64,000 nucleotides of DNA from Pseudarthrobacter oxydans (GTDB lineage Bacteria > Actinomycetota > Actinomycetes > Actinomycetales > Micrococcaceae), in the NCBI RefSeq assembly GCF_030812335.1, contig NZ_JAUSSN010000005.1, positions 62,001-126,000 of the forward strand, in the 5' to 3' direction. The translations under genes and the position numbers were made by a program. The notes below the pieces were generated by a model that saw only the letters and a program-made list of their open reading frames with translations, did no database searches and had not been told where the DNA came from. Positions 5,785-24,425 of the stretch are shown piece after piece. How positions within the stretch are numbered: position 1 is the first letter of the stretch; each line of letters begins with the position of its first letter.

Positions 5785-5865
5785 GAGTCTCACCAGGCAG
5801 GTGTGGCCCACGCCACACCCACCTACTCCGTAAGCCCCAAGTTCCACAGATTCAAGGAGCCAACA

Positions 5866-7392
5866 ATGAAGTTAGGTCCCAAAGCGGCAGCAACCGCCCT
5901 CACAGTCAGTGCGGCACTAGCCCTGACCGCGTGCGGCGGCGCCGCGAACTCCGGCCCGGCGGCCGGTGCGGCTGCCACCGCACTGACGATCGGCACCATC
6001 CAGGACGTACGTTCCTGGGACCCGGCCCAGGCCCACGTGGGACACGTGCTCCAGCCTTACCAGGCTGTATATGACTCGCTGATCCTGCGCGAACCGGATG
6101 GAAAGCTCAGCCCGCTGCTGGCCACCGGCTGGAAGTACAACGACACGAACACCAAGCTCACCGTGGACCTGCGCACGGACGTCACTTTCAGCGACGGCGC
6201 CAAGTTCGACGCCGAAGCCGCCAAAGCCAATATGGACCACTTCAAGAAGGCCAACGGCCCGCAGCTGGCCCAGCTCGCCGCCGTCCAGGATGTCGCCGTG
6301 GTCGACGCGGACACCATCGACATCAACCTCGCCACGCCGGACCCGGCACTGGAGTACTTTCTCAGTCAGGCCGCCGGCCTAATGGGCAGCCCCACGGCGC
6401 TGGGAACCGAGGGGATCAAGACGGAGCCGGCCGGTTCCGGCCCCTACGTTATGGACAAGGCCGGCTCCGTCAAGGATTCGCAGACCGTGTTCAATGCTCG
6501 CCAGGACTACTGGAACAAAGACCTGCAGAAGTACCAGAAGCTCACATTCAAGATCCTGGCGGACATCACCGCCCGCACTAACGCCTTGGTTTCCGGCCAG
6601 GTTGACGCCACAATCCTGGACCCCAAGACGGGCAAGCAGGCCGAGGGTGCCAAAATGAAGCTCGCCGCCAACGAGGTGGACTGGCAGGGGCTGCTGCTGA
6701 TGGACCGTGACGGCACCAAGAACGCTCCGCTGAAGGACGTCAAGGTCCGCCAAGCCATCAACTACGCGTTCGACCGCAAGACCATCCTTGACCAAGTCAT
6801 GCTGGGCCAGGGCACCCCCACGTCCCAGCCGTTCGGCAAGGAAAGCGGAGCCTGGACCGAAGGGCTGGAGAATCACTACAGCTACGATCCGGCCAAGGCC
6901 AAACAGCTCCTCAAGGAAGCCGGCTACGAAAACGGCGTCACCCTGGAAATCCCGGGCATCCCGAACTTCGAAACCCAGATCTCCGTAGTGAAGCAGCAGC
7001 TGGCGGACGTGGGCATCACCCTCAACGTCGGTGCCGCGCTGACCAACACCTTCACATCCGACGTCGCAGCACAGAAGTACACCACCATGTACTTCTCCCT
7101 TTTCCAGGGCGAGCCGACGGTCGCCATCAACCAGATCATCTCCACCAAGGCGCTCTACAACCCGTTCAAGAACGCCGATCCGGAGCTGGACGCAAAGATT
7201 GAGGCCGTACGCACCGGCGGCGCCGATGCCGGCAAGCTGGCCCAGGACGTGAACAAGTACGTCGTTGACCAGGCATGGTTTGCCCCGCTGTTCCGCGTCA
7301 ACCAGATGTACTACCACAACTCCAAGGTGGACGTGGTGCCGCAGATCCAGCAGGCCGTTCCTTCCATCTACAACTACTCACCGGCCAAGTAG
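5866..7392 (+). CDS. ABC transporter substrate-binding lipoprotein (SBP family 5)
   Basis: 508-residue extracytoplasmic solute receptor of the DppA/OppA/NikA family. A signal peptide ends in the lipobox ALTAC with the lipidated cysteine at residue 23. The family-5 pattern is visible (LDLRTDVTFSDGAKFDAEA-type segment near residue 110, and VKVRQAINYAFDRKTIL). The ATG at 5866 follows AAGGAG; a longer open frame from 5803 has no ribosome site and would bury the signal peptide. It heads a transporter operon with the two permease genes and the ATPases downstream. Family 5 receptors carry peptides but also oligosaccharides and glycosides. The neighbourhood favours a glycoside or glucuronide ligand, which is inference. 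Confidence 0.92.
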   Translation: MKLGPKAAATALTVSAALALTACGGAANSGPAAGAAATALTIGTIQDVRSWDPAQAHVGHVLQPYQAVYDSLILREPDGKLSPLLATGWKYNDTNTKLTVDLRTDVTFSDGAKFDAEAAKANMDHFKKANGPQLAQLAAVQDVAVVDADTIDINLATPDPALEYFLSQAAGLMGSPTALGTEGIKTEPAGSGPYVMDKAGSVKDSQTVFNARQDYWNKDLQKYQKLTFKILADITARTNALVSGQVDATILDPKTGKQAEGAKMKLAANEVDWQGLLLMDRDGTKNAPLKDVKVRQAINYAFDRKTILDQVMLGQGTPTSQPFGKESGAWTEGLENHYSYDPAKAKQLLKEAGYENGVTLEIPGIPNFETQISVVKQQLADVGITLNVGAALTNTFTSDVAAQKYTTMYFSLFQGEPTVAINQIISTKALYNPFKNADPELDAKIEAVRTGGADAGKLAQDVNKYVVDQAWFAPLFRVNQMYYHNSKVDVVPQIQQAVPSIYNYSPAK

Positions 7393-7398
7393 GGCACC

Positions 7399-8340
7399 AT
7401 GATCAGGTTCATTGCGAAAAGGCTGGGCAGCGGGCTGGCGGTGCTGTTTGTTGTCTCGGCGATCACCTTCTTCCTGCTGTATATGTCCAGCGGAAGCATC
7501 GCCCGGAACATCCTGGGCGATCAGGCCACGGCTGAGCAGGTGGCGCTGAAAGAAGCGGAACTGGGGCTGGACCAGCCCCTAGTGGCCCGCTACTTCTCTT
7601 GGGTGTTCGATGCCCTGGGCGGAAACCTGGGTGCTTCGTGGTTCACCTCGGAGCCGGTGGCCAATTCCCTAGCCAGCCGGATTCCGGTCACCATGACCAT
7701 GGTTTTCGCTGCAATGATCCTGATCGCAATTTGTGCCACGCTCATCGGCGTTACTGCCGCGGTGAAGCGCGGCTGGGTGGACAGGGTGGTCCAGGTTGGC
7801 GCCATCATCGGTGACTCCATTCCGGGGTTCGTGATCGGCGTTATCCTGGTCACCGTCCTGGCCATCCAGCTGGGCCTCTTCCCGGCCACCAGCACCATTT
7901 CCCCGGAATCCGGTCCCGACGCGTGGGTCTATTCCATGTCCCTTCCGGTGATCGCCTTGCTGGTCAACGGCGTCACCGGTGGGGCGCAGCAAATCCGCAG
8001 CGCCGTCATCAAACAGCTCGAGCGGGATTATGTCCGCACCCTTCGCAGCCGCGGCATCGGCGAGCGCGAGATCCTGTTCAAACATGTACTGCGCAGTGCT
8101 GCTCCGGCCGGTCTGACCGTTCTGAGCCTGCAGCTAATCGGCATGCTTGGCGGCGTGGTGATCATCGAGCAGATCTTTGCCCTCCCGGGCATGGGTCCAC
8201 TGGCGGTCACTGCCACCGGCCAGTCGGATCTTCCCGTGGTGATGGGCGTCGTGATGTACACGGTGGGCGTCGTCATCGTGGTGAACCTGCTGGTGGACGT
8301 TCTTAACGGCTGGCTCAACCCGAAGGTACGTGTGTCATGA
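7399..8340 (+). CDS. ABC transporter permease (DppB/OppB type)
   Basis: 313-residue inner-membrane permease beginning MIRFIAKRLGSGLAVLF, with the family's N-terminal hydrophobic helix and about six membrane segments. The binding-protein-dependent transport signature is in the ERDYVRTLRSRGIGEREILFK stretch near residue 210, which couples to the ATPase. It starts 6 nt after the lipoprotein stop and overlaps the next gene by 4 nt (ATGA). It forms the translocation channel with the permease half of the following fusion protein. Confidence 0.93.
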   Translation: MIRFIAKRLGSGLAVLFVVSAITFFLLYMSSGSIARNILGDQATAEQVALKEAELGLDQPLVARYFSWVFDALGGNLGASWFTSEPVANSLASRIPVTMTMVFAAMILIAICATLIGVTAAVKRGWVDRVVQVGAIIGDSIPGFVIGVILVTVLAIQLGLFPATSTISPESGPDAWVYSMSLPVIALLVNGVTGGAQQIRSAVIKQLERDYVRTLRSRGIGEREILFKHVLRSAAPAGLTVLSLQLIGMLGGVVIIEQIFALPGMGPLAVTATGQSDLPVVMGVVMYTVGVVIVVNLLVDVLNGWLNPKVRVS

Positions 8341-10211
8341 GCGATTCAGTAGAAACTGCGGCAGTGGCCGCGCCGGCCCCCGGTACCTCCACTCAACCCG
8401 CCCCGACTCACACAGGGCAGAGCGGTACGGTGGTCCGTTCCACCGTCCTCCGGCGCCTGTTCAAGAACCCCCTTGGCATCGTTGCCATGGCGATCCTGCT
8501 GGTGATCTCGCTCCTGGCCGTCCTGGCTCCGGTCCTGGCGCCCTTCGAGGAGAACTACTCGAACATCGCCAAGACGCTGGCCGCTCCGGACTCCGTGAAC
8601 ATCCTCGGAACGGACAGCGCCGGGCGCGACGTCTGGAGCCGGCTGCTGTTCGGTGCGCAGCTGACCCTTCTGTCCGCTTTGCTCTGCGCGGGCGTTGCCA
8701 TCGCCATCGGCCTGCCCGCCGGCCTGATCGCTGGCTACTACGCCGGAAAGTTCGAAGCGGTCTCCAACTGGGTGGTCAGCATCCTGATGAGCCTTCCCGG
8801 CCTGATCGTGCTCCTGACCATCCGGGCGGCGTTCGGCCCGTCGGTATGGATTTCCATGATCGCCTTCGGCATCCTGATCAGCCCGTCCTACTTCCGGCTG
8901 ACCCGCACGGCCGTGCAGTCGGTGCGCAACGAGCTGTACGTTGACGCCGCCCGGGTGTCCGGGCTGTCCGACTGGAGCATCATCGCGCGCCACATCTTCT
9001 CCGTGGTCCGCGCCCCCATCATTATCCAGACCGCGGCCATTGCCGGCGTGGCCATCGCCATCCAGTCCGGGCTCGAGTTCCTCGGCCTGGGCGACCCCAG
9101 CAAGGCAACCTGGGGTGTGATGCTCTCCGAGGGCTTCAAGAACGTCTACCTGACCCCCACGCTGCTCTTCTGGCCCGCGCTTGCCATGGCGCTGACCATC
9201 GGCGGCCTGGTCCTGCTGGGCAACGCTATCCGTGACGCCCTGGAAGACGGCGAGAAGATCAAACACCGCAAGAAAAAGGCCACGCTGGAAGGTTCGACGG
9301 CGGCGCCCGCCGCCGCGCGCCCGTCCCGTAAGTCTGTTGCCGCCGTCGACGCCGGCACCGAGCACCACCTCGTGAAGGTGACCAATCTCGGCGTCGGCTA
9401 TCCGCAGGCCGACGGCTCCATCAAGAAAGTGGTGGACGACGTCTCCTTCCACGTGGACCGCGGCGAGATCCTGGGCATCGTGGGAGAATCCGGGTCGGGC
9501 AAGTCCCAAACCGCCTTCTCCATCCTGGGACTGCTTCCGGACAACGCGCGCATCGTTGCCGGCTCCATCCAGTTCGATGGCAACTACACCGTGGCCCCCG
9601 GCGAGGAACTCGTCAGCCAGGCGCGGCTGTCCAAGCTGCGCGGCAGGCGGATCTCCTACATTCCGCAGGAACCCATGAGCAACCTGGACCCGGCCTTCAC
9701 CATCGGCTACCAGTTGGTCACCCCCATGGTGCGGGTCCTCGGCATCGCCAAGGAGGAAGCCCGCAAGCGGGCCCTGAAACTCCTGACCGACGTCGGGATT
9801 ACCAACCCGGAGCGGACCTTTAACGCCTACCCCCACGAGGTCTCCGGCGGCATGGCGCAGCGCGTGCTGATCGCCGGTGCCATCAGCTGCGAACCTGACC
9901 TGGTCATCGCGGACGAGCCCACCACGGCTCTGGACGTCACGGTGCAGGCGGACGTGCTGGACCTCCTGCGCGAACTCCAGCAGCGCCTGAACATCGGCGT
10001 GATCCTGGTGACCCACAACTTCGGGGTGGTGGCGGACCTCTGCGACCGGGTGGCCGTGATGCAGAACGGCCGGCTCGTGGAGGAAGGATCCGTCCGCGAC
10101 ATTCTCCGGAACCCCAAAGAGCCGTACACCCGGACCCTCCTGGCGTCCATGCTTGAAGGCAAAACCCCTATGTCCATGCTTGTATCCAGGCAGAAGGAGC
10201 CGGTCGCATGA
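8337..10211 (+). CDS. ABC transporter permease-ATPase fusion (DppC + DppD)
   Basis: 624-residue fusion of two subunits that are normally separate. Residues about 35-300 are a DppC-type permease (LGTDSAGRDVWSRLLFGA and the EAA loop YVDAARVSGLSDWSIIARHI). A charged linker with HRKKKATLEG follows. Residues about 335-610 are a DppD-type ATPase with Walker A GESGSGKS at 383-390, the signature SGGMAQR, and Walker B ending DLVIADEPTTALDV. Such fusions are known in actinobacterial peptide-type transporters. The 4-nt overlaps with both neighbours keep it in a coupled operon. Bases are continuous through the linker, so it is a true fusion rather than a readthrough. Confidence 0.92.
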   Translation: MSDSVETAAVAAPAPGTSTQPAPTHTGQSGTVVRSTVLRRLFKNPLGIVAMAILLVISLLAVLAPVLAPFEENYSNIAKTLAAPDSVNILGTDSAGRDVWSRLLFGAQLTLLSALLCAGVAIAIGLPAGLIAGYYAGKFEAVSNWVVSILMSLPGLIVLLTIRAAFGPSVWISMIAFGILISPSYFRLTRTAVQSVRNELYVDAARVSGLSDWSIIARHIFSVVRAPIIIQTAAIAGVAIAIQSGLEFLGLGDPSKATWGVMLSEGFKNVYLTPTLLFWPALAMALTIGGLVLLGNAIRDALEDGEKIKHRKKKATLEGSTAAPAAARPSRKSVAAVDAGTEHHLVKVTNLGVGYPQADGSIKKVVDDVSFHVDRGEILGIVGESGSGKSQTAFSILGLLPDNARIVAGSIQFDGNYTVAPGEELVSQARLSKLRGRRISYIPQEPMSNLDPAFTIGYQLVTPMVRVLGIAKEEARKRALKLLTDVGITNPERTFNAYPHEVSGGMAQRVLIAGAISCEPDLVIADEPTTALDVTVQADVLDLLRELQQRLNIGVILVTHNFGVVADLCDRVAVMQNGRLVEEGSVRDILRNPKEPYTRTLLASMLEGKTPMSMLVSRQKEPVA

Positions 10212-11098
10212 GCACCACGGAGAACGACCCGGTCCCGGCAGCCCCGCTCCTGTCTGTGGACCACCTGGTGGTGGAATACCCCAGCAAGAAGTTCAGGGCC
10301 AAGCCGTTCCGGGCGCTGACGGACATCAATATCACTATCGGCCGGGGAGAAACCCTCGGCCTGGTGGGGGAGTCCGGCTCCGGCAAGACCACCCTGGGCC
10401 GGGCGGTCCTGGGCCTGGCCCCGGTGACCGGCGGAAAAATCATCTTCGAGGGCAAGGACATCAGCCACGCCACTCGCAGGCAGCGGCGCACCCTGAGCCG
10501 GGACCTGCAGGTGGTCTTCCAGGATCCGTACACCTCGCTGAATCCGGCACTGGAGATCGGCGCCATCCTCGCCGAACCCCTCGGCGTGCAGGGCATGGAA
10601 CAGACGGCGGCGAAGAAACGGGTCAAGGAACTGCTGGACCAGGTGGGGCTCCCGTCGGACGCCATCCACCGCCTGCCCCGGGAGTTCAGCGGCGGCCAGC
10701 GCCAGCGCGTGGCAATCGCCCGGGCGCTCGCCCTCTCGCCGAAGCTGATCGTCTGCGACGAACCCGTCAGTGCACTCGACCTGTCCACCCAGGCGCGTGT
10801 CCTTGACCTGTTCCTGCAGATCCAGAAGGACACCGGCGTTTCGTACCTCTTCGTCTCCCACGACCTGGATGTCGTGCGGCACATCAGCCACCGGGTGGCT
10901 GTGATGTACCACGGCGAGATTGTGGAGCAGGGGCCGGCCGACGTCGTCACCCGGGACCCGGAGCACCCCTATACCCAGCGTCTCCTGCTGGCGTCCCCGG
11001 TACCTGATCCGGACCGGCAGGAACAGCGCCGGGCGGATCGCCATCGGCTGCTGGAAATCCAGCGGCATCAGAAAGAACAGGCCGGTGCAGTCGCCTAA
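10208..11098 (+). CDS. ABC transporter ATP-binding protein (DppF/OppF type)
   Basis: 296-residue second ATPase of the same importer. Walker A is GESGSGKTT, the family Q-loop region is VVFQDPYTSLNP, the signature is FSGGQRQRVAIARAL, and Walker B leads into DEPVSALDLSTQ; the C-terminal oligopeptide transporter extension HPYTQRLLLASP is present. It overlaps the fusion gene by 4 nt. Its stop codon lies inside the first unit of a small tandem repeat. Together with the DppD half it powers uptake for the lipoprotein at 5866. Confidence 0.93.
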   Translation: MSTTENDPVPAAPLLSVDHLVVEYPSKKFRAKPFRALTDINITIGRGETLGLVGESGSGKTTLGRAVLGLAPVTGGKIIFEGKDISHATRRQRRTLSRDLQVVFQDPYTSLNPALEIGAILAEPLGVQGMEQTAAKKRVKELLDQVGLPSDAIHRLPREFSGGQRQRVAIARALALSPKLIVCDEPVSALDLSTQARVLDLFLQIQKDTGVSYLFVSHDLDVVRHISHRVAVMYHGEIVEQGPADVVTRDPEHPYTQRLLLASPVPDPDRQEQRRADRHRLLEIQRHQKEQAGAVA

Positions 11099-13335: not shown

Positions 13336-14397
13336 GTGACTGAACCCAAGACGCCGGACGCTGACGCCACCAAGGCTCCGGCCAAGAAGCACGCCCGCGA
13401 CGGAAAATCCAGCGCCACCATCTACGACATCGCCAAGGTAGCCGGCGTCAACCCGTCCACGGTTTCCCGGGCGCTCAGCAAACCCGGCCGGGTGAGCGCC
13501 AAGACGCAGAAACTCATCGAGGATGCCGCCGCCGAGCTCAACTACCAGGTCAACCCCTTCGCCCGTGCGTTGCCGACCGGCCGGACCAACACCTTCGGGC
13601 TGATCGTCGCGGACATCACCAACCCCACGTTCTTCGACATCATCCGGGGGGCGGAGACCACCGCGACAGCCCGGGACTACACCCTGGTGCTCGCCGAGTC
13701 GGCGGAATCCGCGATCACTGAGCTGACGGCCGCCCGGCGGATGATGGCCACCGTGGACGGCCTCATCCTGGCCAGCCCGCGCATGGACGACGACGACATC
13801 CGGGCCCTCGCCCGCGACAAGCCCGTGGTGGTCATCAACCGCGAGGTCGACGGCGTGCCGTGCGTGGTCCCCGACGTGAACAAGGGCATCAGCGAGGCGG
13901 TCCGCAGCCTGGCCGCCAACGGCCACCACAAAGTTGCCTTTGTGGCCGGACCGCCGCAGTCCTGGATGTCCGCCCGCCGCTGGGAGGGTGTGCAGGCGGC
14001 CTGCGAGTGGTCCCGGCTGGACGCCGTGCGGCTCGAATCCGGCAAACCCACGGTCGACGGCGGCCGACAGGTGGCGCGCGACGTCCGGGCCAGCGGCGCC
14101 ACGGCCGTGCTGACCTACAACGACCTCCTGGCCATCGGCCTGATGCAGGAACTTCAGGCCGCCGGGGTGGTGGTCCCGGACCAGATCAGCATCGTGGGCT
14201 TCGACGATATTTTCGGGGCGGATTTCACCACGCCGCCGCTGACCACCGTGCGTTCGCCTCTCGGCGAGTGCGGCTCGGGTGCTGCCGCGTTGCTGCTGGA
14301 TCTCCTGCACGGCACGGGGGAGCCGGCCGGGACCGTGCGCGTCGAAACAGAACTCGTGCTGCGGGGTTCCAGCGGACGGTTGCTGCCCGCGGGCTAG
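13336..14397 (+). CDS. LacI family transcriptional regulator (second)
   Basis: 353-residue LacI-type repressor with a 30-residue polar N-terminal extension, then the helix-turn-helix TIYDIAKVAGVNPSTVSRAL and a sensor domain (FGLIVADITNPTFFDIIRG). The start is GTG at 13336, placed 6 nt after a TAGGAT box (13324-13329) with no Shine-Dalgarno, which suggests a leaderless mRNA. It precedes the uxaC promoter, whose operator at 14438 it could bind. The recognition helix (VNPSTVSRAL) is close to that of the other LacI protein (VAASTVSRAL), so both may read the same TGGCAACCGGTTG motif. Confidence 0.9.
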   Translation: MTEPKTPDADATKAPAKKHARDGKSSATIYDIAKVAGVNPSTVSRALSKPGRVSAKTQKLIEDAAAELNYQVNPFARALPTGRTNTFGLIVADITNPTFFDIIRGAETTATARDYTLVLAESAESAITELTAARRMMATVDGLILASPRMDDDDIRALARDKPVVVINREVDGVPCVVPDVNKGISEAVRSLAANGHHKVAFVAGPPQSWMSARRWEGVQAACEWSRLDAVRLESGKPTVDGGRQVARDVRASGATAVLTYNDLLAIGLMQELQAAGVVVPDQISIVGFDDIFGADFTTPPLTTVRSPLGECGSGAAALLLDLLHGTGEPAGTVRVETELVLRGSSGRLLPAG

Positions 14398-14484: not shown

Positions 14485-15885
14485 ATGTCACAGTCGATTG
14501 CCGCCAACCCTGACCGGCTCCTGCCCGCGGATCCCGGAACGCGCAGCATTGCGCGCGAACTCCTCGGCCGGGTCCAGGACCTCCCCATCATTTCTCCGCA
14601 CGGGCACGTTGACGCCGCCGTCATCGAGCACAACACCCCCTTCCCGGACCCGGCAGCGCTGCTGGTCAGCCCGGACCACTACGTCACCCGGCTGATCCAC
14701 GCCAGCGGCGTCCCGCTGGACCGGCTGCGGGATACCTCGGAACCGGACTCCCGCACCGTCTGGCGCGAGTTCTGCCGGGCCTGGCCCTTGTTCGAGGGCA
14801 CCGCCTCCGGATACTGGCTCCGCACCCAGTTCGAAAACGTCTTCGGCCTCGAGCAGGAGATCAGCGCCGAGGCCGCAGACGCCAGTTACGATGCCATTTC
14901 CGCCAAGCTGCTGGAGCCCGGCTTCCGTCCCCGGCAGCTCTTCAAGGACTTCAATATCGAGGTCCTGGCCACCACGGACGACCCCCTGGACAGCCTGGCC
15001 AGCCACAAGTCAATCGCCCAGGACCCCACGTTCCACGGTCGCGTCCTGCCCACGTTCCGCCCGGATGCCTACCTCAACATCGCGCACTCCACGTGGTCCG
15101 CAAACGTTGACCGGCTCATCGCGGCAGCGGGCGACGGCGCCACCGGCTATGCCGGCTACCTCACCGCGCTGGAAAACCGGCGTCGTTATTTCGTGGACCA
15201 CGGCGCAGTCTCCGCCGACCACGGCGTCCGCACGCCCGCAACGCTCAAGCTCGACGCCGCCGACGCAGCGAAGCTGTTTGACCGTGCGCGCTCCGGCCAG
15301 GCGACGGCGCAGGACCGCGACGACTTCGAAGCCCACATGATGTACCAGATGGCGCGGATGTCCGTGGAGGACGGCCTCGTGATGACCATCCACCCGGGGT
15401 CCTACCGCAACCACCACGGCCCCACGTTCGAAAAGTTCGGCACGGACACCGGCCACGACATCCCGTTCGCCGTGAACTACACCGAGGCCATCCGCCCGCT
15501 GCTGCAGGACTTCGGCACCGCCAAGGACTTCCACCTGGTGCTGTTCACCCTGGACGAGACGGTCTTTTCCCGCGAACTCGCGCCGCTGGCCGGCTTCTAC
15601 CCGTCCGTCTACATTGGCGCCCCGTGGTGGTTCCTTGATGCTCCGGATGCCATGCTGCGCTTCCGCTCGGCCGTCACTGAAACAGCCGGCTTCTCCCGGT
15701 CCTCAGGCTTCATCGACGACACCCGGGCCTTCTGCTCCATCCCGGCACGGCACGACGCCTCCCGCCGGATCGAGGCCTCCTTCCTGGCCCGCCTCGTGGC
15801 GGAGCACCGGGTCAGCGAGGACCGCGCCCACGAACTCATCGTCGACCTCGTCGACGCCTCACCCCGAAGGGTCTTCAAACTGTGA
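14485..15885 (+). CDS. uxaC: Glucuronate isomerase
   Basis: 466-residue uronate isomerase of the amidohydrolase superfamily, converting D-glucuronate to D-fructuronate (and galacturonate to tagaturonate). The metal-binding SPHGHVD is at residues about 36-42. The family regions FENVFGL, VLATTDDPLDSL, LPTFRPDAYL and the C-terminal FIDDTRAFCSIPARHD are all present, and the length equals that of E. coli UxaC. The ATG at 14485 has no Shine-Dalgarno and fits a leaderless start behind the LacI operator. It is coupled to the next gene by a 4-nt overlap. This is the entry step for glucuronate released by UidA. Confidence 0.96.
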   Translation: MSQSIAANPDRLLPADPGTRSIARELLGRVQDLPIISPHGHVDAAVIEHNTPFPDPAALLVSPDHYVTRLIHASGVPLDRLRDTSEPDSRTVWREFCRAWPLFEGTASGYWLRTQFENVFGLEQEISAEAADASYDAISAKLLEPGFRPRQLFKDFNIEVLATTDDPLDSLASHKSIAQDPTFHGRVLPTFRPDAYLNIAHSTWSANVDRLIAAAGDGATGYAGYLTALENRRRYFVDHGAVSADHGVRTPATLKLDAADAAKLFDRARSGQATAQDRDDFEAHMMYQMARMSVEDGLVMTIHPGSYRNHHGPTFEKFGTDTGHDIPFAVNYTEAIRPLLQDFGTAKDFHLVLFTLDETVFSRELAPLAGFYPSVYIGAPWWFLDAPDAMLRFRSAVTETAGFSRSSGFIDDTRAFCSIPARHDASRRIEASFLARLVAEHRVSEDRAHELIVDLVDASPRRVFKL

Positions 15886-17315
15886 GCATCGACCTGCAAC
15901 CCGAAGCGGAACCCGCTGTGGAACTTCCCCGGCTGAACCGCCGCCTGCTGCCGGCGACCAAGTCTCCCGTGCGCATCGTGCACCTGGGGCTGGGCGCGTT
16001 CCACCGCTCGCACCAGGCCTGGTACACCCACCAGGCGGGCGACGCCGCGGACTGGGGCATCGCTGCCTTCACCGGCCGCCGCCCCGACGCGGCCCTGGCC
16101 CTGGCCGAACAGGACGGGCTCTTCACCGTGGTGGAACGTGCCGACGCCGGCGATTCCTTCACCGTGGTCAGCAGCATCGTGGAGGCAGCGGACGGCGCTG
16201 ACGTGCAGCGGCTGGCGGAACTGCTCGCGGCTCCTGCCACCACCGTCGTCACCCTGACCATCACCGAAGCCGCCTACCGGCTCGGCCCCGACGGACAGCT
16301 TGACCGCACCGCGTCCGACGTCGTTGCCGACCTTGCGCTGCTGGCTTCCGGAAGCGGACATCCGACGACGCCGCTGGGCCGGCTGGTGCTGGCCCTCGCC
16401 GCCCGCCGGGCTGCCGAAGCGGGACCGCTGGCCGTGGTCTGCTGCGACAACCTCTCCAGCAACGGGACCGTGGCACATAACGCCGTGGTGGGTATGGCCG
16501 GCGCCTGGGACGAAGGCCTCGCCGACTGGATTGACGCAAACGTCAGCTTTGTCAGCACCTCCGTGGACCGCATCACGCCGCGTACCACGGAAGAGGACGT
16601 TGCGCTGGTGGAGGCTGCGTGCGGCTACCGGGACAATTCCCCCGTGGTGGCCGAACCCTTCTCTAACTGGGTGCTCAGTGGGGACTTTCCCGCGGGGCGC
16701 CCGCGCTGGGAAGACGCCGGCGCCGTGTTCGTCGCGGACATCGAGCCCTACGAAAACCGCAAACTCTGGCTGCTCAACGGCGCGCACTCGCTGCTCGCGT
16801 ACGCAGGGCAGCTCCGCGGCCACACTACCGTGGCCCAGGCGCTGGCGGACCCGCTGTGCCTGCAGGCGGTTGAAGGGTTCTGGGACGAGGCCGAGGCGAA
16901 CCTTGCCGGCGGTGGGACGGCGGGCGCCGACCTGCAGATCCCGGCCTACCGGGCCGCCCTGCTTGCACGCTTCAGCAACGCCCGGATCGCCCACCACCTC
17001 GCGCAGATAGCCATGGACGGCAGCACCAAGTTGCGGATGCGCGCAGTTCCGGTGCTGGAGGCTGAACGTGCCGCCGGCCGCACCGGTGCCGCTGCCGCGC
17101 TGATGATTGCGTCGTGGATGGACTACAGCTCTGCCGCCGTCGCGTTCCAGGATCCGCTGGCCGATGAGGTGGCCGCCGCCAACCTCATCAGCGGCGCCGA
17201 ACGGATCCGTGCCTTGCTGGCCCTGGTGGACCCGGTCCTCGCCGCGGACGCGGCGGTTGTGGACCTGATTGAAGACTTGTGCGGAACGTTCGGGGAGCGG
17301 GCTGTCTCCCTTTAG
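15882..17315 (+). CDS. uxuB: Mannitol dehydrogenase family protein, probable fructuronate reductase
   Basis: 477-residue long-chain polyol dehydrogenase. The N-terminal nucleotide-binding region is IVHLGLGAFHRSHQAWYTH; the catalytic lysine with its following Asn and His is in the ENRKLWLLNGAHS motif. Sitting directly after uxaC with a GTGA overlap, it most likely reduces D-fructuronate to D-mannonate with NADH, the second step of the Ashwell pathway. Mannitol or altronate dehydrogenase activity would be the alternatives within this family. The GTG start at 15882 is fixed by the overlap. A strong terminator follows. Confidence 0.88.
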   Translation: MSIDLQPEAEPAVELPRLNRRLLPATKSPVRIVHLGLGAFHRSHQAWYTHQAGDAADWGIAAFTGRRPDAALALAEQDGLFTVVERADAGDSFTVVSSIVEAADGADVQRLAELLAAPATTVVTLTITEAAYRLGPDGQLDRTASDVVADLALLASGSGHPTTPLGRLVLALAARRAAEAGPLAVVCCDNLSSNGTVAHNAVVGMAGAWDEGLADWIDANVSFVSTSVDRITPRTTEEDVALVEAACGYRDNSPVVAEPFSNWVLSGDFPAGRPRWEDAGAVFVADIEPYENRKLWLLNGAHSLLAYAGQLRGHTTVAQALADPLCLQAVEGFWDEAEANLAGGGTAGADLQIPAYRAALLARFSNARIAHHLAQIAMDGSTKLRMRAVPVLEAERAAGRTGAAAALMIASWMDYSSAAVAFQDPLADEVAAANLISGAERIRALLALVDPVLAADAAVVDLIEDLCGTFGERAVSL

Positions 17316-17378: not shown

Positions 17379-17400
17379 AATGAACTTTCAACAAAAATGT

Positions 17401-17440
17401 ATGGCAACCGCTTGCCATTTGATTGCCACGTGACTAGAAT
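17401..17440 (+). promoter_or_regulatory. LacI-type operator fused to the uidA promoter
   Basis: ATGGCAACCGCTTGCCAT (17401-17418) is an 18-bp palindrome with one central mismatch. It contains the -35 box TTGCCA (17412-17417); 17 nt later is TAGAAT (17435-17440), 5 of 6 to the consensus. It is the best-formed of the four sister promoters. The leader to uidA would be about 85 nt. Confidence 0.75.
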
Positions 17441-17531
17441 TACATTCAGACGAAGGCGCTCCGGGACGACAACCCGGCCGCCGCCCAGACCCGCAGGCGC
17501 ACCCCCGCAACGACGCGTAAGGACTCCCCAG

Positions 17532-19355
17532 ATGCTCAAGCCCCAGGCAAATGAAACCCGTGAGCTCGTCAACCTTGACGGGCTGTACCGGTTCAAGGTG
17601 GACTTCGACCGGTCCGGCCACCGGGACGAATGGTTCAAGGCGACGCTCGACTCGCCGCTGGAAATGGGCGTCCCCGCCAGCTACAACGACGTCTTCCCGG
17701 ACAAAGCCATCCGGGACCACGTCGGCTACGTCTGGTACCAGCGCGACGTGCGGGTGCCCCGCGGCTGGGCAGGGGAGCGGATCCACCTGCGCCTCGACTC
17801 CGCCACGCACGAGGGGATGGTGTGGGTGGACGATGTTCTGGTCGCCCAGCACGCCGGCGGCTACATGCCGTTCAGTGCCGACATCACGGACCACGTAACC
17901 CCCGGCCAGGCCTTCCGCCTCACCGTCTCGGTGAACAACGAGCTCACCCAGGCCACGATCCCGCCGGGCAGCATCACCGTTACCGAGGACGGCCGCCGCC
18001 AGCAGAGCTACCTGCACGATTTCTACAACTACGCCGGGCTGCACCGCAGCCTGTGGCTGTTCAGCACCCCCGCGGTGACCGTGGACGACATCACGGTCGT
18101 CACCGGCTTCGACGGGCCCACGGGCAGCGTCAGCTACTCGGTAGCCACGGCCGGCGGGACGGGCAGTGAAACGGTGACCGTTTCGCTCAGGGACGCCGAC
18201 GGCGTCGAGGTGGCCCGCGCCGACACCGCCCGGGGCACGCTGTCGGTCGCCGACGTCGTGCTCTGGAAGCCCGGCGCCGCGTACCTCTACAGCCTGACGG
18301 CCGAGATCCGCGACGGCGGCACGCTGCTGGACAGCTACACGCTGCCGGTCGGCGTCCGGACGGTCGAAGTCAGCGGCAAGGAATTCCTCATCAACGGGGA
18401 GCCGTTCTACTTCACCGGCTTCGGCATGCACGAGGACCACGTCACCGTCGGCAAGGGCCACAGCAACGCCCAGATGGTCAACGACTTCCAGCTCCTGGAC
18501 TGGGTGGGCGCCAACTCGTTCCGGACCTCGCACTACCCCTACGCCGAAGAGGTCATGGAGTTCGCGGACCGCCACGGGATCGTCGTGATCGACGAAACCG
18601 CCGCCGTCGGGCTGCACCTGGGCTTCGGCGCCGTCTTCGGCGGCATTGCCAAGAAGACCTACGAGGACGGCGGGGTGGACGCCAACACCGCCGCCAGCCA
18701 CCGCCAGGCCATCACCGAGCTCGTGGCCCGGGACAAGAACCACCCGTCGGTGGTGATCTGGTCCATCGCCAATGAACCCAACGGTTCCGAGGAAGGCGCC
18801 CGCGAGTACTTCCAGCCGCTGGTGGAACTCACCCGCGAGCTGGACCCCACCCGTCCAGTGGGCTACGTCAACGTCATGTTCGACACCCCGGACAAGGAAC
18901 TGCTCGGCGACCTCTTCGACGTCATCATGCTCAACCGCTACTACGGCTGGTACCTGAACAACGGGGACCTCGAAACCGCCGAACAGGTCCTGGAAAAGGA
19001 ACTCCGGGAATGGGAAGCCAAGTACGGCAAGCCCATGATCATGACCGAATACGGGCCGGACACCATGCCCGGGTTCCACTCCATCTATGAACAGCCCTGG
19101 AGCGAGGAATACCAGGCCGCCTTCCTGGCCATGTACCACCGCGTCTTTGACCGCGTGGACGCCATGGTGGGCGAGCAGGTCTGGAACTTCGCCGACTTCC
19201 AGACGTCCAACGGCATTATGCGCGTGGACGGCAACAAGAAGGGCGTCTTCACCCGCGACCGCCGGCCCAAGCCCGCCGCGTTCGCCCTCCGGCAGCGGTG
19301 GACCGCGCTGGCCGGCACGAAGAACGGCAGCACGAAGAGCATCACCACCCCCTAG
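17532..19355 (+). CDS. uidA: Beta-glucuronidase (GH2)
   Basis: 607-residue glycoside hydrolase family 2 enzyme that releases D-glucuronate from glucuronides. Jelly-roll and immunoglobulin-like domains precede a TIM barrel. The acid/base E415 is in SIANEPNGSEEG and the nucleophile E506 in MTEYGPDT, matching E413 and E504 of the E. coli enzyme. The glucuronate-specific NxK motif is present in VDGNKKGVFTRD, which argues against beta-galactosidase. No signal peptide, so it is cytoplasmic. The ATG at 17532 (MLKPQANET) aligns with family N-termini; an open frame from 17397 would extend through the promoter. It leads the uidA-uidB-manD-kinase/GH3 operon. Confidence 0.95.
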   Translation: MLKPQANETRELVNLDGLYRFKVDFDRSGHRDEWFKATLDSPLEMGVPASYNDVFPDKAIRDHVGYVWYQRDVRVPRGWAGERIHLRLDSATHEGMVWVDDVLVAQHAGGYMPFSADITDHVTPGQAFRLTVSVNNELTQATIPPGSITVTEDGRRQQSYLHDFYNYAGLHRSLWLFSTPAVTVDDITVVTGFDGPTGSVSYSVATAGGTGSETVTVSLRDADGVEVARADTARGTLSVADVVLWKPGAAYLYSLTAEIRDGGTLLDSYTLPVGVRTVEVSGKEFLINGEPFYFTGFGMHEDHVTVGKGHSNAQMVNDFQLLDWVGANSFRTSHYPYAEEVMEFADRHGIVVIDETAAVGLHLGFGAVFGGIAKKTYEDGGVDANTAASHRQAITELVARDKNHPSVVIWSIANEPNGSEEGAREYFQPLVELTRELDPTRPVGYVNVMFDTPDKELLGDLFDVIMLNRYYGWYLNNGDLETAEQVLEKELREWEAKYGKPMIMTEYGPDTMPGFHSIYEQPWSEEYQAAFLAMYHRVFDRVDAMVGEQVWNFADFQTSNGIMRVDGNKKGVFTRDRRPKPAAFALRQRWTALAGTKNGSTKSITTP

Positions 19356-19407: not shown

Positions 19408-20847
19408 ATGAAGAAGCCCAAGAAACTCAGCAAGTTAAGCATCATCGGCTATGGCGCCGGCGACGCTGCCAACAACCTCGCCTTCACCACCGCCACCATG
19501 TTCCTGCTGGTGTACTACACGGACGTGGCCGGGATTTCGGCAGCCGCGGCCGGCACCCTGCTGCTCACGGTCAGGATCTTCGACGCCTTCGCCGATGTCT
19601 TCGCCGGCCGGGTAGTGGACCGGACGTTCAGTAAGCGCTTCGGCAAGTTCCGCCCGTTCATCATGTTCGGATCCATCCCGCTGCTCCTGCTGAGCGTGGC
19701 AACGTTCTCCATCCCGGAGCTCGGTGAGTCAGGCACGCTCCTGTACGCCTACGTCACGTATGCCGCCCTCGGCCTGGCCTACAGCCTCGTCAACATCCCC
19801 TACGGTTCCCTGGCCGGCGCCATGACGCAGGATCCGGGGGAGCGGGCAAAGCTGGGCTCCGCCCGCATGATCGGTGCGCTGCTGGTGGGCTCCGCCCTCG
19901 GCATCTTCGTGGCACCGCTCATCAAGCCGGGGGCCGACCTCCAGGAAACCTTCACCACCATCACCGTGGCGTTCGTGGTGGTCGGCGCCGCCCTCTACTT
20001 CTTCACCGTCCTGACCGCCAAGGAACGGGTCCACCGCGCGGTCCCGAACGTTACCTTCAAACAGAGCATGGACACGCTCAAGGGCAACAAGCCGCTCCTG
20101 ATGCTCTGCCTGAGCTCCTTCTTCTTCCTCTCCGGCTACCTCGCCCTGACCTCGGTCCAGCTGTACTACCTGCGCGACGTCCTGGGACGGCTGGACCTGT
20201 ACCCGGTCCTGTCCATCATCCAGCTGGTCCTCACCTTCGTGCTGGCCGGGTTCATGCCCAGGCTGGTCCGGAATTTCGGCAAGAAGCGGGTCTACATCTA
20301 CTCCTCACTGCTGACGGTCATCGGCGGCATCACGGTCTTCCTCGCCCCGGCCAGCCAGGTCTGGATCGGGTTCACGGGCCTGGTCGTGAGCCTGCTGGGC
20401 GTCCTCGCCGTCAACATCGTGGTGTGGGCACTGGAGGCCGACACTGTGGAATACGGCGAATGGAGGACCGGTGTCCGCACGGAAGGCATCACCTACGCGC
20501 TCTTCTCCTTTACCCGCAAAACCGGCCAGGCCGTGGGCGGAGCACTCGCCGCATACGCCCTGGCGCTGGGCGGCTACAAGTCCGGCGCCGTCCAGACCGC
20601 AGAAGCCGTGTTCGGAATCCAGGTCGCCGCCGGTGCCATCCCGGCCGTGCTGACCATCGTCGCCGTGGCCGTGATGTCCAAATACAAGCTCACGGACGCC
20701 CGGCATGCGGAGATCCTCGCGGAGATCCGGTCCCGCCGCGACAGCGGCGCCGACGACGCTGCCGGGGGCACGTCCGACGACGCTGCCAGCAGCAGCCCGG
20801 ACGGCCCCGCCAGCGACACGAAACCCCTCGCGTCCACCACCAACTAA
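19408..20847 (+). CDS. uidB: GPH-family sugar:cation symporter, UidB-like
   Basis: 479-residue membrane transporter of the glycoside-pentoside-hexuronide family with about twelve predicted helices. Diagnostic segments are SIIGYGAGDAANNLAF at the N-terminus, the loop RTFSKRFGKFRPFIMFGS, and the C-terminal EYGEWRTGVRTEGITYALFS region. It sits between uidA and manD with GTAAAGGAG before the ATG at 19408. It probably imports intact glucuronides. The last 45 residues are a polar Asp/Ser-rich cytoplasmic tail unusual for the family. Confidence 0.88.
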   Translation: MKKPKKLSKLSIIGYGAGDAANNLAFTTATMFLLVYYTDVAGISAAAAGTLLLTVRIFDAFADVFAGRVVDRTFSKRFGKFRPFIMFGSIPLLLLSVATFSIPELGESGTLLYAYVTYAALGLAYSLVNIPYGSLAGAMTQDPGERAKLGSARMIGALLVGSALGIFVAPLIKPGADLQETFTTITVAFVVVGAALYFFTVLTAKERVHRAVPNVTFKQSMDTLKGNKPLLMLCLSSFFFLSGYLALTSVQLYYLRDVLGRLDLYPVLSIIQLVLTFVLAGFMPRLVRNFGKKRVYIYSSLLTVIGGITVFLAPASQVWIGFTGLVVSLLGVLAVNIVVWALEADTVEYGEWRTGVRTEGITYALFSFTRKTGQAVGGALAAYALALGGYKSGAVQTAEAVFGIQVAAGAIPAVLTIVAVAVMSKYKLTDARHAEILAEIRSRRDSGADDAAGGTSDDAASSSPDGPASDTKPLASTTN

Positions 20848-20886: not shown

Positions 20887-22116
20887 ATGAAAATCATTGC
20901 TGCGGAAGTCTTTGTGACCAGTCCGTCCCGTAACTTCGTGACCCTGCGGATCACCACCGAGGACGGGGTGACCGGGATCGGGGACGCGACGCTGAACGGG
21001 CGTGAGCTTGCGGTGGCGGCGTATTTGAAGGAACACGTTGCGCAGCTGCTGATCGGGAAGGATCCGCACCGGATCGAGGACACGTGGCAGTTCCTGTACC
21101 GGTCCTCGTACTGGCGCCGGGGTCCGGTGACGATGGCCGCGATCGCGGCGGTGGATATGGCGTTGTGGGACATCAAGGGCAAGATGGCCGGGATGCCGGT
21201 CTACCAGCTCCTCGGCGGGGCGTCGCGGAACGGGCTGCGGGCCTACGGCCATGCCTCGGGCGCGGACCTTCCCTCGCTGTTTGATTCGGTCCGGGAGCAC
21301 CTGGAACTGGGCTACAAGTCGGTGCGGATCCAGACCGCGGTGCCCGGGATCAAGGCCGTGTACGGGGTCGCGGCGCAGGCCCAGGCCTCCGGGGAGCGCT
21401 ACGACTACGAGCCCGCGGGCCGCGGGGCGTTCCCGGCGGAGGAGGACTGGGACACCCGGGCGTACCTGCGGCACCTGCCTTCGGTGTTTGAGGCGGTGCG
21501 GAACGAGTTCGGCCCGGAGCTGCCGCTGCTCCATGACGGGCACCACCGGATGACCCCGATCCAGGCCGCGAAGCTGGGCAAGGCGCTGGAACCCTACGAC
21601 CTGTTCTGGCTCGAGGACTGCACCCCGGCGGAGAACCAGGAGGCGCTGCGTCTGGTCCGCCAGCACACCACCACGCCGCTGGCGATCGGGGAGATCTTCA
21701 ACACCGTCTATGACTTCCAGGCCCTGATCAAGGAACAGCTGATCGACTATGTCCGGGCCGCGTCGACGCACTTCGGCGGGATCTCGCCGCTGAAGAAGGT
21801 GATGGACTACGCCGCGCAGTACCAGATCAAGTCCGGCTTCCACGGACCGACGGACATTTCCCCGGTCGGGTTCGCCGCGCAGCTGCACGTGGGCCTGGCG
21901 ATCCACAACTACGGCATCCAGGAATACATGCCGCACTCGGACGCGACGAACACGGTGTTCGAGCAGTCCATGACGTTCGTCGACGGCTACCTGCACCCGG
22001 GCGAGGCGCCCGGCATCGGGGTGGAATTCAACGAGGAAGCCGCCAACAGCTACCCCTACCAGCAGGCCTACCTGCCCTACAACCGCCTCGTCGACGGAAC
22101 GGTCCACGACTGGTGA
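20887..22116 (+). CDS. manD: D-mannonate dehydratase, enolase superfamily
   Basis: 409-residue ManD/RspA-type enzyme dehydrating D-mannonate to 2-keto-3-deoxy-D-gluconate. The Mg2+ ligands D217, E243 and E269 lie in [16 protein letters not shown] and IGEIFNT, and the catalytic H219 follows the first. The spacing equals that of the characterised enzyme from Novosphingobium (D210, E236, E262, H212). This replaces UxuA in the pathway. The interior of the gene uses GGG and GCG far more than its neighbours, which use GGC and GCC. That hints at a separate origin; the last 100 bp revert to local usage. Confidence 0.93.
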
Positions 22117-24425
22117 CGCGCCCTACAACCGGCCCCGCCCCCGCCCGCCGCGTCGTCGTCATGGGCGTCTCCGGCTGCGGCAAGACCACCATCGGTGACC
22201 TCGTGGCCCGCGAACTGGGGGTGCCGTTCCTCGACGGCGATTCCCTGCACCCGGTCGAGAACGTCGCCAAGATGGCGGCCGGCACGCCGCTGACGGACGA
22301 CGACCGCTGGCCCTGGCTCGCCACCGTGGGCAGCACCCTGGCCAACGAGGGCGACGACGGACTGGTCCTGGCCTGTTCCGCGCTCCGGCGCAGCTACCGG
22401 GACGCCATCCGCGCCCTGGCGCCCGGGACCGTGTTCCTGCACCTGCACGGCAGCAAGGAGGTCCTCGGGTCCCGGCTCGAAGGCCGTTCTGGCCATTTCA
22501 TGCCGGCCGCGCTGCTGGAATCACAGCTCGCGACGCTGGAACCCCTCGACGCCGACGAATCCGGGATCGTGGTCGACATCGCCGCCCCGGTCCACCAGGT
22601 CGTGACCGAGGCGCTGGCCGGGATAGCCGCCGTCGCCACTCCGGCCGGCAACGCCATCGGTGGGGCGGGCACCCGGCGCCGCCGGTTCGACGTCGACCTT
22701 CAGGCGGCGCCGTTCAACCTTGACGATGACGCGGTCGCGTGGGTGGATTCCACGATCGCCGGGATGAGCCTCGAGGAAAAGATCGGCCAGCTGTTCATCA
22801 ACCACAACAACGACTACTCCCCGGAGTATCTGGACGGCATCCTGGAGAACTACCACGTGGGCGGGATGCGCTACCGGCCCGGCCCCTCCGCCGCGGTGCA
22901 GGACCACATCCGTTATGCGCAGTCCAAGACCCGCATCCCGCTGCTCGTGGCCTCCAACCCGGAAATGGGCGGAGCCGGAAGCTGCGACGACGGAACGTTT
23001 GTCTCGACGCACCTGCAGGCCGGCTCGCACCCGGACAAGGCCATCGCCCGGCAAATGGGGCGCGTGGCCGGTGTCGAAACCGCGGCGCTGGGCTGCAACT
23101 GGGCGTTCGCGCCGATCGTTGACATCCACTACAACTGGCGGAACACGGTCATCTCCACCCGGGCCTTCGGCAACACCCCGGAGATCGTAGTGGAGCGCGC
23201 CAAGGAGTATTTCGACGGCATCAGTGAGTCCGCCACCGTCTGCGCCATGAAGCACTTCCCGGGCGACGGCATGGACGAACGCGACCAGCACGTCGTCACG
23301 TCCTACAACACCCTCGGTTACGAGGAATGGAACCGGACCTACGGGCACGTGTACCGGGAGATGATCGGGCACGGCGTGCAGTCCATCATGATCGGGCACA
23401 TCGGGGCGCCGGAACTTTCCCGGCACTTCCGCCCCGGCCTGGCGGACGGGGACATCCTGCCCGCGACCCTCGCGCGGGAACTGCTCCAGGACCTGCTCCG
23501 CGGCGAGCTCGGCTTCAACGGGCTGATCCTGACGGACGCGTCGCAAATGATCGGCCTGACGCAGGCCATGAAGCGCAAGGACCTGGTGCCGGCCACCATC
23601 GCCGCCGGCTGTGACATGTTCCTGTTCTTCCGCAACCCCGCGGAGGACTTCGAGTACATGCTGGATGGCTACAAGTCCGGCGTCATTTCCGAGGAACGCC
23701 TGCACGATGCGCTGCGCCGGATCCTGGCGCTGAAGGCCAGCCTGGGGCTGCACCGCAAACCGGCCGCGGAACTTGTCCCGCCGGCGGAAGCACTCGCGGT
23801 GATCGGAAGCGACGCCCACCGGGGCGTGGCAGCGGCGATCGCGGACAAGACCGTCACCCTGGTCAAGGACACCGCGTACAACCTGCCCATCACGCCGGAG
23901 ACGCACCCGCGGATCCGCCTGTACGGCATCTCCGGCGGTGCGGACTTCACCCGCGCGGATCCGCTGGCCTACCTGGACACGGTCAAAGCCGAGCTAGAAG
24001 ACGCCGGTTTCGAGGTGCACCTGTTCAAAACGGCGGACCAGCGGGAAGCGGCGGGGGAGACGGGCGTGAATTTCATGTCGGTCATCTCCGAGGAAGCCAC
24101 CGGCGATTACGCAGACAAGTACGACGCCGCCTTCGTGTTCGCCAACGTCAAGGGCTTCGCCCAGGAGTCGGCCATCCGGATCAAATGGTCCACCCCCATG
24201 GCCGCGGAAATCCCCTGGTACGTCACCGAGGTCCCCACCGTCTTCGTCTCGCTCAACCAGCCCAACCACCTGATTGACGTGCCGATGGTAAAGACCGCCA
24301 TTCACGCCCACGCCGGAACCCGGGAGGCCATCCGGGCCACCATCGAGAAGATCCGGGGCAAGTCGGAGTTCCAGGGCACGTTCAACGAGAACGTGTTCTG
24401 CGATTCCTTCGACACACGGCTCTGA
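22113..24425 (+). CDS. Gluconokinase fused to a GH3 family glycosidase
   Basis: 770-residue two-domain protein. Residues about 12-175 are a GntK-type gluconokinase: P-loop GVSGCGKTT at 18-26, then [30 protein letters not shown]-type segment and the [17 protein letters not shown] lid. Residues about 195-770 are a glycoside hydrolase family 3 catalytic domain with the KHFPGDG loop (380-386) and probable nucleophile D475 in LILTDASQ. The joining stretch (residues 176-195) is continuous with no stop. The GTG start overlaps the manD stop by 4 nt. The kinase may phosphorylate gluconate or a related acid; the GH3 half may split another glycoside. I know of no such fusion, so sequencing error at the junction should be excluded. 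Confidence 0.85.

Follow-up and report, generated by a model that had tools for sequence, protein, structure and literature searches.

Why should a gluconokinase-type kinase be made as one protein with a family GH3 glycosidase? The question is raised by one gene in a 64,000-nucleotide stretch of Pseudarthrobacter oxydans DNA (the window), for which a reading of the sequence alone had proposed that the glycosidase hands its product directly to the kinase.

One reading frame joins two complete enzymes

The gene and its parts are listed below.

22113..24425, plus strand: GntK-GH3 fusion gene, a single ORF of 770 aa with a GTG start
22152..22619, plus strand: GntK/IdnK-type gluconokinase domain, residues 14-169 (TIGR01313, 185.7 bits; PDB 3t61, 187.2 bits)
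22626..22712, plus strand: flexible linker, about residues 172-200 (pLDDT below 50 at 176-191)
22710..24422, plus strand: BglP-type two-domain GH3 enzyme, residues 200-770 (PF00933; 5vqd; Foldseek 5vqe)
22869..22871, plus strand: Arg253 codon (residue comparison between GH3 branches)
23250..23291, plus strand: K380-H381 and the D391/H393 acid-base dyad (all four residues constant in 44/44 GH3 rows)
23535..23537, plus strand: D475 (TDASQM), predicted catalytic nucleophile (constant in 44/44 rows)

The kinase domain lies well above the NCBIfam cut-off for TIGR01313 (113.75 bits), and its P-loop, GVSGCGKT, begins at residue 18. The GH3 barrel scored 188.2 bits against Pfam PF00933 (cut-off 27; residues 220-539), with KHFPGDG at residues 380-386 and D475 at the nucleophile position. 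The sequence-only reading, which had described a complete GntK and a complete GH3 in one frame and had named these motifs, was correct on each of these points. A second GH3 domain, absent from that reading like the BglP kinship and the glucuronide operon described below, spans about residues 558-770 in the AlphaFold2 model and the 5vqd alignment. In this model (mean pLDDT 87.3, pTM 0.73) both halves are predicted with confidence, and residues 176-191 between them are disordered. With two well-conserved halves that the model folds with confidence, the protein ought to be amenable to experiment. The gene is confirmed as a genuine fusion of a sugar-acid kinase and a glycosidase in one protein, built from known families, GntK and GH3, in a new combination. 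As the earlier reading had also supposed, no description of a gluconokinase-GH3 fusion was found among the open-access papers listed.

Conservation of the fusion

The same fusion was looked for in relatives and found, full-length and in a single frame, in 89 of 150 genomes of the genus, a count that takes in the window's own genome. Full-length copies were those matching from residue 13 or earlier to residue 769 or 770 without a stop; G013, matched in two pieces in one frame, was added. A frame or assembly error that makes two genes look like one, a concern of the earlier reading at the junction, could draw on the broken or partial copies in at least eight more genus genomes (G051, G053, G054, G070, G092, G131, G138 and G146), but the uninterrupted frame in 89 genomes excludes it at the junction, and we rejected this explanation as having practically no chance of being right.

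Among 59 loci read there were 45 full-length fusions, 43 of them distinct (the duplicates L044/L045 were dropped before the linker counts). These 43 copies, chosen for a single frame, have linkers of 22 to 60 aa without a conserved internal start, and two of the 43 have a start behind a ribosome-like core. The linker of the window copy has no in-frame internal start codon, and an internal start yielding a separate GH3 was rejected on these results. In 33 fused genus copies belonging to the window's lineage, the median dN/dS of GntK was 0.108 and that of GH3 0.090, against 0.486 in the linker; purifying selection on the two enzymes is strong, and the linker evolves loosely. Kinase motifs were intact in 38-43 of the 43 fused copies and GH3 motifs in all 43.

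The GntK domains form two lineages, A (at least 70% identical to the window kinase) and B (57-61%), each with fused and solo members. In both lineages the GH3 part of a full-length fusion shares 85-95% identity with the window GH3. The fused label changes 12 times on the GntK tree, at least 5 of the changes being forced (the bootstrap had not settled; L187 and L076 were dropped). A quick GH3 tree, from which L185, L076, L074 and L187 were dropped, placed the lineage-B copies in two groups, and a constrained single group had the better likelihood (p-AU 0.80). Two joinings and a single exchange of the kinase half both fit the trees.

Outside the genus, 6 of 197 family genomes carry a GH3 of the window type. 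It is fused in G287 and G176, encoded in G242 as the second of two clean adjacent genes, behind a ribosome-like site, found alone after ManD in G225 and alone at an unrelated locus in G261, and broken in G244. The earlier reading would have been refuted had close relatives all possessed two separate genes; this is not so, given the 89 fused genus genomes, although G242 has two clean ones. The locus of the G261 GH3 (L073; 88% identity to the window GH3) has neither GntK nor uronate genes, a context that suggests transfer.

No match outside the family contained both halves among 396 genomes of the order (two top candidates scored in each); GH3 matches there start at residue 154 or later. The class search found window-type GH3 at 1e-60 in 2 of 394 genomes, both of the window's genus. 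The nearest plasmid-collection record, from Arthrobacter sp. StoSoilB13, matched the entire query in two pieces at 78.8% identity. G951 has unfused GH3 and GntK genes separated by about 17 kb in a single cluster, which also holds the same transporter, dehydrogenase and uronate genes. Directly 3' of this unfused GH3, on the same strand, is a 6-phosphogluconate dehydrogenase gene (L201, 6400-7866), which may be a housekeeping copy.

The fusion ends a glucuronide operon

The following genes lie upstream of the fusion.

20887..22116, plus strand: ManD D-mannonate dehydratase, directly upstream of the fusion (NF043051, 685.3 bits, cut-off 550)
19408..20847, plus strand: UidB-type glucuronide transporter, GPH family (NF007353, 649.7 bits, cut-off 528)
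17397..19355, plus strand: GH2 beta-glucuronidase (NF007538, 878.9 bits, cut-off 544)
15882..17315, plus strand: fructuronate reductase-like (UxuB) dehydrogenase (NF011611, 260.1 bits, below the cut-off of 603)
14485..15885, plus strand: UxaC glucuronate isomerase (NF002794, 571.7 bits, cut-off 387)
13336..14397, plus strand: LacI-type regulator (best model NF047341, 196.1 bits, below the cut-off of 382)
5803..11098, plus strand: Opp/Nik-type ABC transporter, including a permease-ATPase fusion at 8337-10211 (first three genes scanned; models below cut-offs)

The genes run in the order UxaC, UxuB-like dehydrogenase, GH2 beta-glucuronidase, UidB-type transporter and ManD, then the fusion, and the stop of manD shares 4 bases with the GTG start of the fusion gene. 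The set from UxaC to the fusion is a glucuronide catabolic operon with the fusion at its end. Farther upstream are the Opp-type ABC transporter, xylose-isomerase-like barrels, inositol-dehydrogenase-type dehydrogenases and the LacI regulator. The ORF at 8337-10211 unites an ABC permease and an ATPase domain, a layout that recurs near the GH3 genes of family f52, where ABC transporter homologues adjoin the GH3.

A BglP-type GH3 branch associated with uronate genes

The nearest solved relative of the GH3 half is BglP/BglX (PDB 5VQD/5VQE), with 385.5 bits over 571 aa and 37% identity in a full-length alignment to 5vqd. The best fold match of the AlphaFold2 model was 5vqe (Foldseek E 5.0e-55; TM 0.92 normalised by 5vqe). 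The acid-base dyad, the nucleophile and the C-terminal domain are common to both enzymes, and the GH3 half differs from ordinary beta-glucosidases. K380-H381 is presumably the sugar-binding pair, as in GH3. The Asp-His dyad, D391/H393, was found in the KHFPG loop in 44 of 44 GH3 rows compared. Such a dyad is the acid-base in BglP/Nag3-type GH3 enzymes, where it replaces the Glu acid-base, according to one report (PMC8950772). A second report terms another enzyme of this kind a hydrolase and adds that phosphorolysis is perhaps not general (PMC6572805); the motif itself does not tell hydrolysis from phosphorolysis. Key active-site residues are common to the window GH3 and BglP, a glucoside-acting enzyme. 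Of 25 near rows, 18 share Gln478 with BglP and the other 7 have Leu. Unlike BglP, the window protein carries an N-terminal kinase, and residues 230, 253, 348 and 506 differ between the branches.

Genomic context differs as well. BglP-type relatives sit with beta-phosphoglucomutase, the gene for which was present in 75 of 93 BglP-type loci and 0 of 33 loci of the window's branch, whereas a UxaC, ManD or UxuA gene was present in 25 of the 33 and in 0 of the 93. The 93 loci comprise the best 80 of 473 from a contig scan plus 13 from the order search; L212, on the BglP side and without phosphoglucomutase, was left out (75/94 with it). The 33 loci are carriers of Arg253, among which the window's family is represented by 23 long-flank loci. 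In a profile scan of 70 of the 80 best far loci, TIGR01990 was matched by 31 of 115 immediate neighbours, after 25 of 140 proteins, the longest by eye, had been left out; 9 of the 80 gave no clear ORF. No genome of the 150 in the genus had a beta-phosphoglucomutase (TIGR01990) above the cut-off, and two had weaker matches. No UxaC, ManD or UxuA was seen in the stretch read at eight branch loci (L073, L201, L202, L206, L207, L214, L226 and L227); for L201, uronate genes follow at a greater distance (L216), and a GUS-like gene is present in L206. At L069, and at L203-L205 with L229/L230, the GH3 has uronate genes beside it but no GntK.

Position 253 is Arg in 56 of 56 window-branch rows and Met in 90 of 93 phosphoglucomutase-type rows; N230, S348 and F506 are likewise specific to the window's branch. 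The residue lies on a predicted strand directly before Y254-R255-P256, and Arg253 may bind a carboxylate. R255 is constant in the window's family and changed in six relatives from other families. The residue comparison between the branches dropped window-family copies with fewer than about 540 matched residues, together with L207, L212, L214, L226 and L227; the branch tree included those five loci and used 12 of 50 window-family copies. Because the Arg253 rows form one side of a single branch (FastTree support 100, with long-branch and composition warnings), Arg253 counts as one event and not as repeated evidence. As judged from gene context, this GH3 branch is tied to glucuronate catabolism. 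It is an apparently uncharacterised BglP-type branch whose genomic link has moved from beta-glucose-1-phosphate metabolism to glucuronate catabolism, and a new substrate range is therefore likely. A conserved, weakly recognised HAD-like protein adjoins the GH3 in L205 (9797-10714) and in L203, L204, L206 and L207 (f49 and one more genome); no relative was found in the 150 genus genomes at 1e-10, in a search without a positive control.

The kinase half

The kinase half resembles GntK/IdnK-type gluconokinases (PDB 3T61, 4EUN, 1KNQ) in being a complete domain with like P-loop and substrate motifs, and differs from them in being fused and encoded after ManD in a glucuronide operon. It did not reach the E. 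coli-type gluconokinase equivalog models (NF008583, 137.1 versus 265 bits; NF007336, 122.6 versus 304 bits). It is 63% identical over 143 residues to the other GntK of the same genome. That second gene is one of 14 GntK-only genus loci fetched; in the other 13, GntK directly follows mannonate dehydratase, without GH3.

Elsewhere in the window's genome are a PfkB-type gene, probably a KdgK, and KDPG-aldolase-family genes, so that KDG kinase activity of the fusion is not needed. As a check on whether GntK could be the sole KDG kinase, close KdgK relatives were sought: one at least 70% identical was present in 66 of 150 genus genomes and 39 of the 89 with the fusion, and weaker PfkB relatives, some near aldolases, may substitute. 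A PF01081 aldolase was undetected at 1e-10 in 10 of the 89 fused genomes, and the KDPG route is therefore not universal. On another contig of the window's genome (L080, G000:C19, 114-3862), a second, near-identical ManD lies beside PfkB-type kinase, KDPG-aldolase-family and dehydratase-like genes. Among loci L088 and L090-L092 (G000:C20 and C19), the PfkB-type kinase and nearby aldolase matches on C20 are each in two pieces; these are broken genes or sequencing errors.

Explanations for the fusion

Our preferred reading, to which we give slightly better than an even chance, is that of a conserved bifunctional cytosolic enzyme ending the glucuronide operon, in which GH3 would cut glucuronate-bearing beta-glycosides and GntK would phosphorylate a sugar acid of the same route. 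The glycosides would be imported into the cytosol and cut, by water or phosphate, by the retaining BglP-type GH3 half, with D475 as nucleophile and D391/H393 as acid-base. The GntK half would use ATP on a six-carbon sugar acid of that route, either gluconate, as its family suggests, or 2-keto-3-deoxygluconate from the adjoining ManD, as its operon position suggests. The floppy linker would give joint synthesis and proximity of entry enzyme and committing kinase, with no fixed channel. Each half is found next to uronate genes without its partner, so the likeliest account is that the fusion brings together two enzymes of a single glucuronide pathway. Several findings count against the preferred reading: the operon already encodes a GH2 glucuronidase, the glucoside-acting BglP shares key active-site residues, eight branch loci show no UxaC, ManD or UxuA, KdgK-like and KDPG-aldolase-family genes are present elsewhere in the genome, and a KDPG route is not universal among the fused genomes. 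A further proposal, which we regard as quite doubtful, is phosphorolysis by GH3 of disaccharides bearing glucuronate or an aldonate, whose acid group Arg253 would hold; the tethered kinase would phosphorylate the sugar acid, so that both products emerge phosphorylated. If true, the GH3 half would be a phosphorylase of beta-glucuronides or glucosyl-uronates, and the fusion a bifunctional enzyme of a new type.

Neighbouring operon genes might also have been joined neutrally, with no benefit from tethering. This is compatible with the other readings, and we hold it as a less probable but serious candidate: the 4-base overlap between neighbouring genes, the clean split in G242 and the frequent changes of the fused label all favour it, whereas the retention of the fusion in 89 of 150 genomes with both halves under strong selection, and the joining of two GntK lineages to the same GH3, do not. 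Under direct hand-over, the substrate of GH3 would be an aldobionate, for instance the cellobionate-like beta-glucosyl-gluconate, and the attached GntK would phosphorylate the gluconate so released. This could hold if the product of GH3 is an aldonate such as gluconate, and a kinase score above the TIGR01313 cut-off is in keeping with it, as is the f52 GH3 joined to beta-phosphoglucomutase, which would act on the other GH3 product; but the E. coli-type equivalog model was not reached (137.1 versus 265 bits), the linker is unconstrained, and the operon enzymes are those of glucuronate and not gluconate. If glucuronate is what GH3 frees, three enzymes of the established pathway, UxaC, UxuB and ManD, separate it from a KDG kinase. 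Cellobionate phosphorylase is a GH94 enzyme. In one report, Neurospora cellobionate use in yeast required cellobionate phosphorylase and gluconokinase (PMC4537572), a pairing of a glycoside-cleaving step with a gluconokinase as in the window fusion; there the two are separate proteins, whereas the window has one protein, which could hold both activities, in an operon for glucuronate. The earlier claim finds support in part: the fusion exists, and its two halves belong to sugar-acid and uronate metabolism. The proposed hand-over is neither shown nor required, given the solo GntK after ManD at 13 of 14 loci, the solo GH3 beside uronate genes and the unfused pair in G951, and we consider a dedicated hand-over pair unlikely. 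It is likewise improbable, in our judgement, that the GH3 is a BglP-like beta-glucoside phosphorylase giving beta-glucose 1-phosphate, with the uronate context incidental. The full-length 5vqd score, the identical catalytic dyad and Gln478 in 18 of 25 near rows speak for it, but the missing beta-phosphoglucomutase (0/150 genus genomes above the cut-off, 0/33 branch loci), the branch-specific N230, R253, S348 and F506, and the change of Gln478 to Leu in 7 near rows speak against it.

A parallel fusion in family f52

Nine of the 15 f52 loci read (L208, L211, L215, L220-L224 and L228) encode beta-phosphoglucomutase followed in frame by a BglP-type GH3. The GH3 is of the same type as in the window fusion and is again joined N-terminally to a sugar-phosphate enzyme; the f52 partner is a HAD mutase, whereas the window partner is a P-loop kinase. 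Together the two pairings offer a comparison for why product-processing enzymes become tethered to a glycosidase. An internal ATG with a ribosome-like site precedes the GH3 in five of the nine f52 fusions, from which two products are possible, and none does in the other four. An Opp-type permease-ATPase gene like the window's is present in seven of the nine loci.
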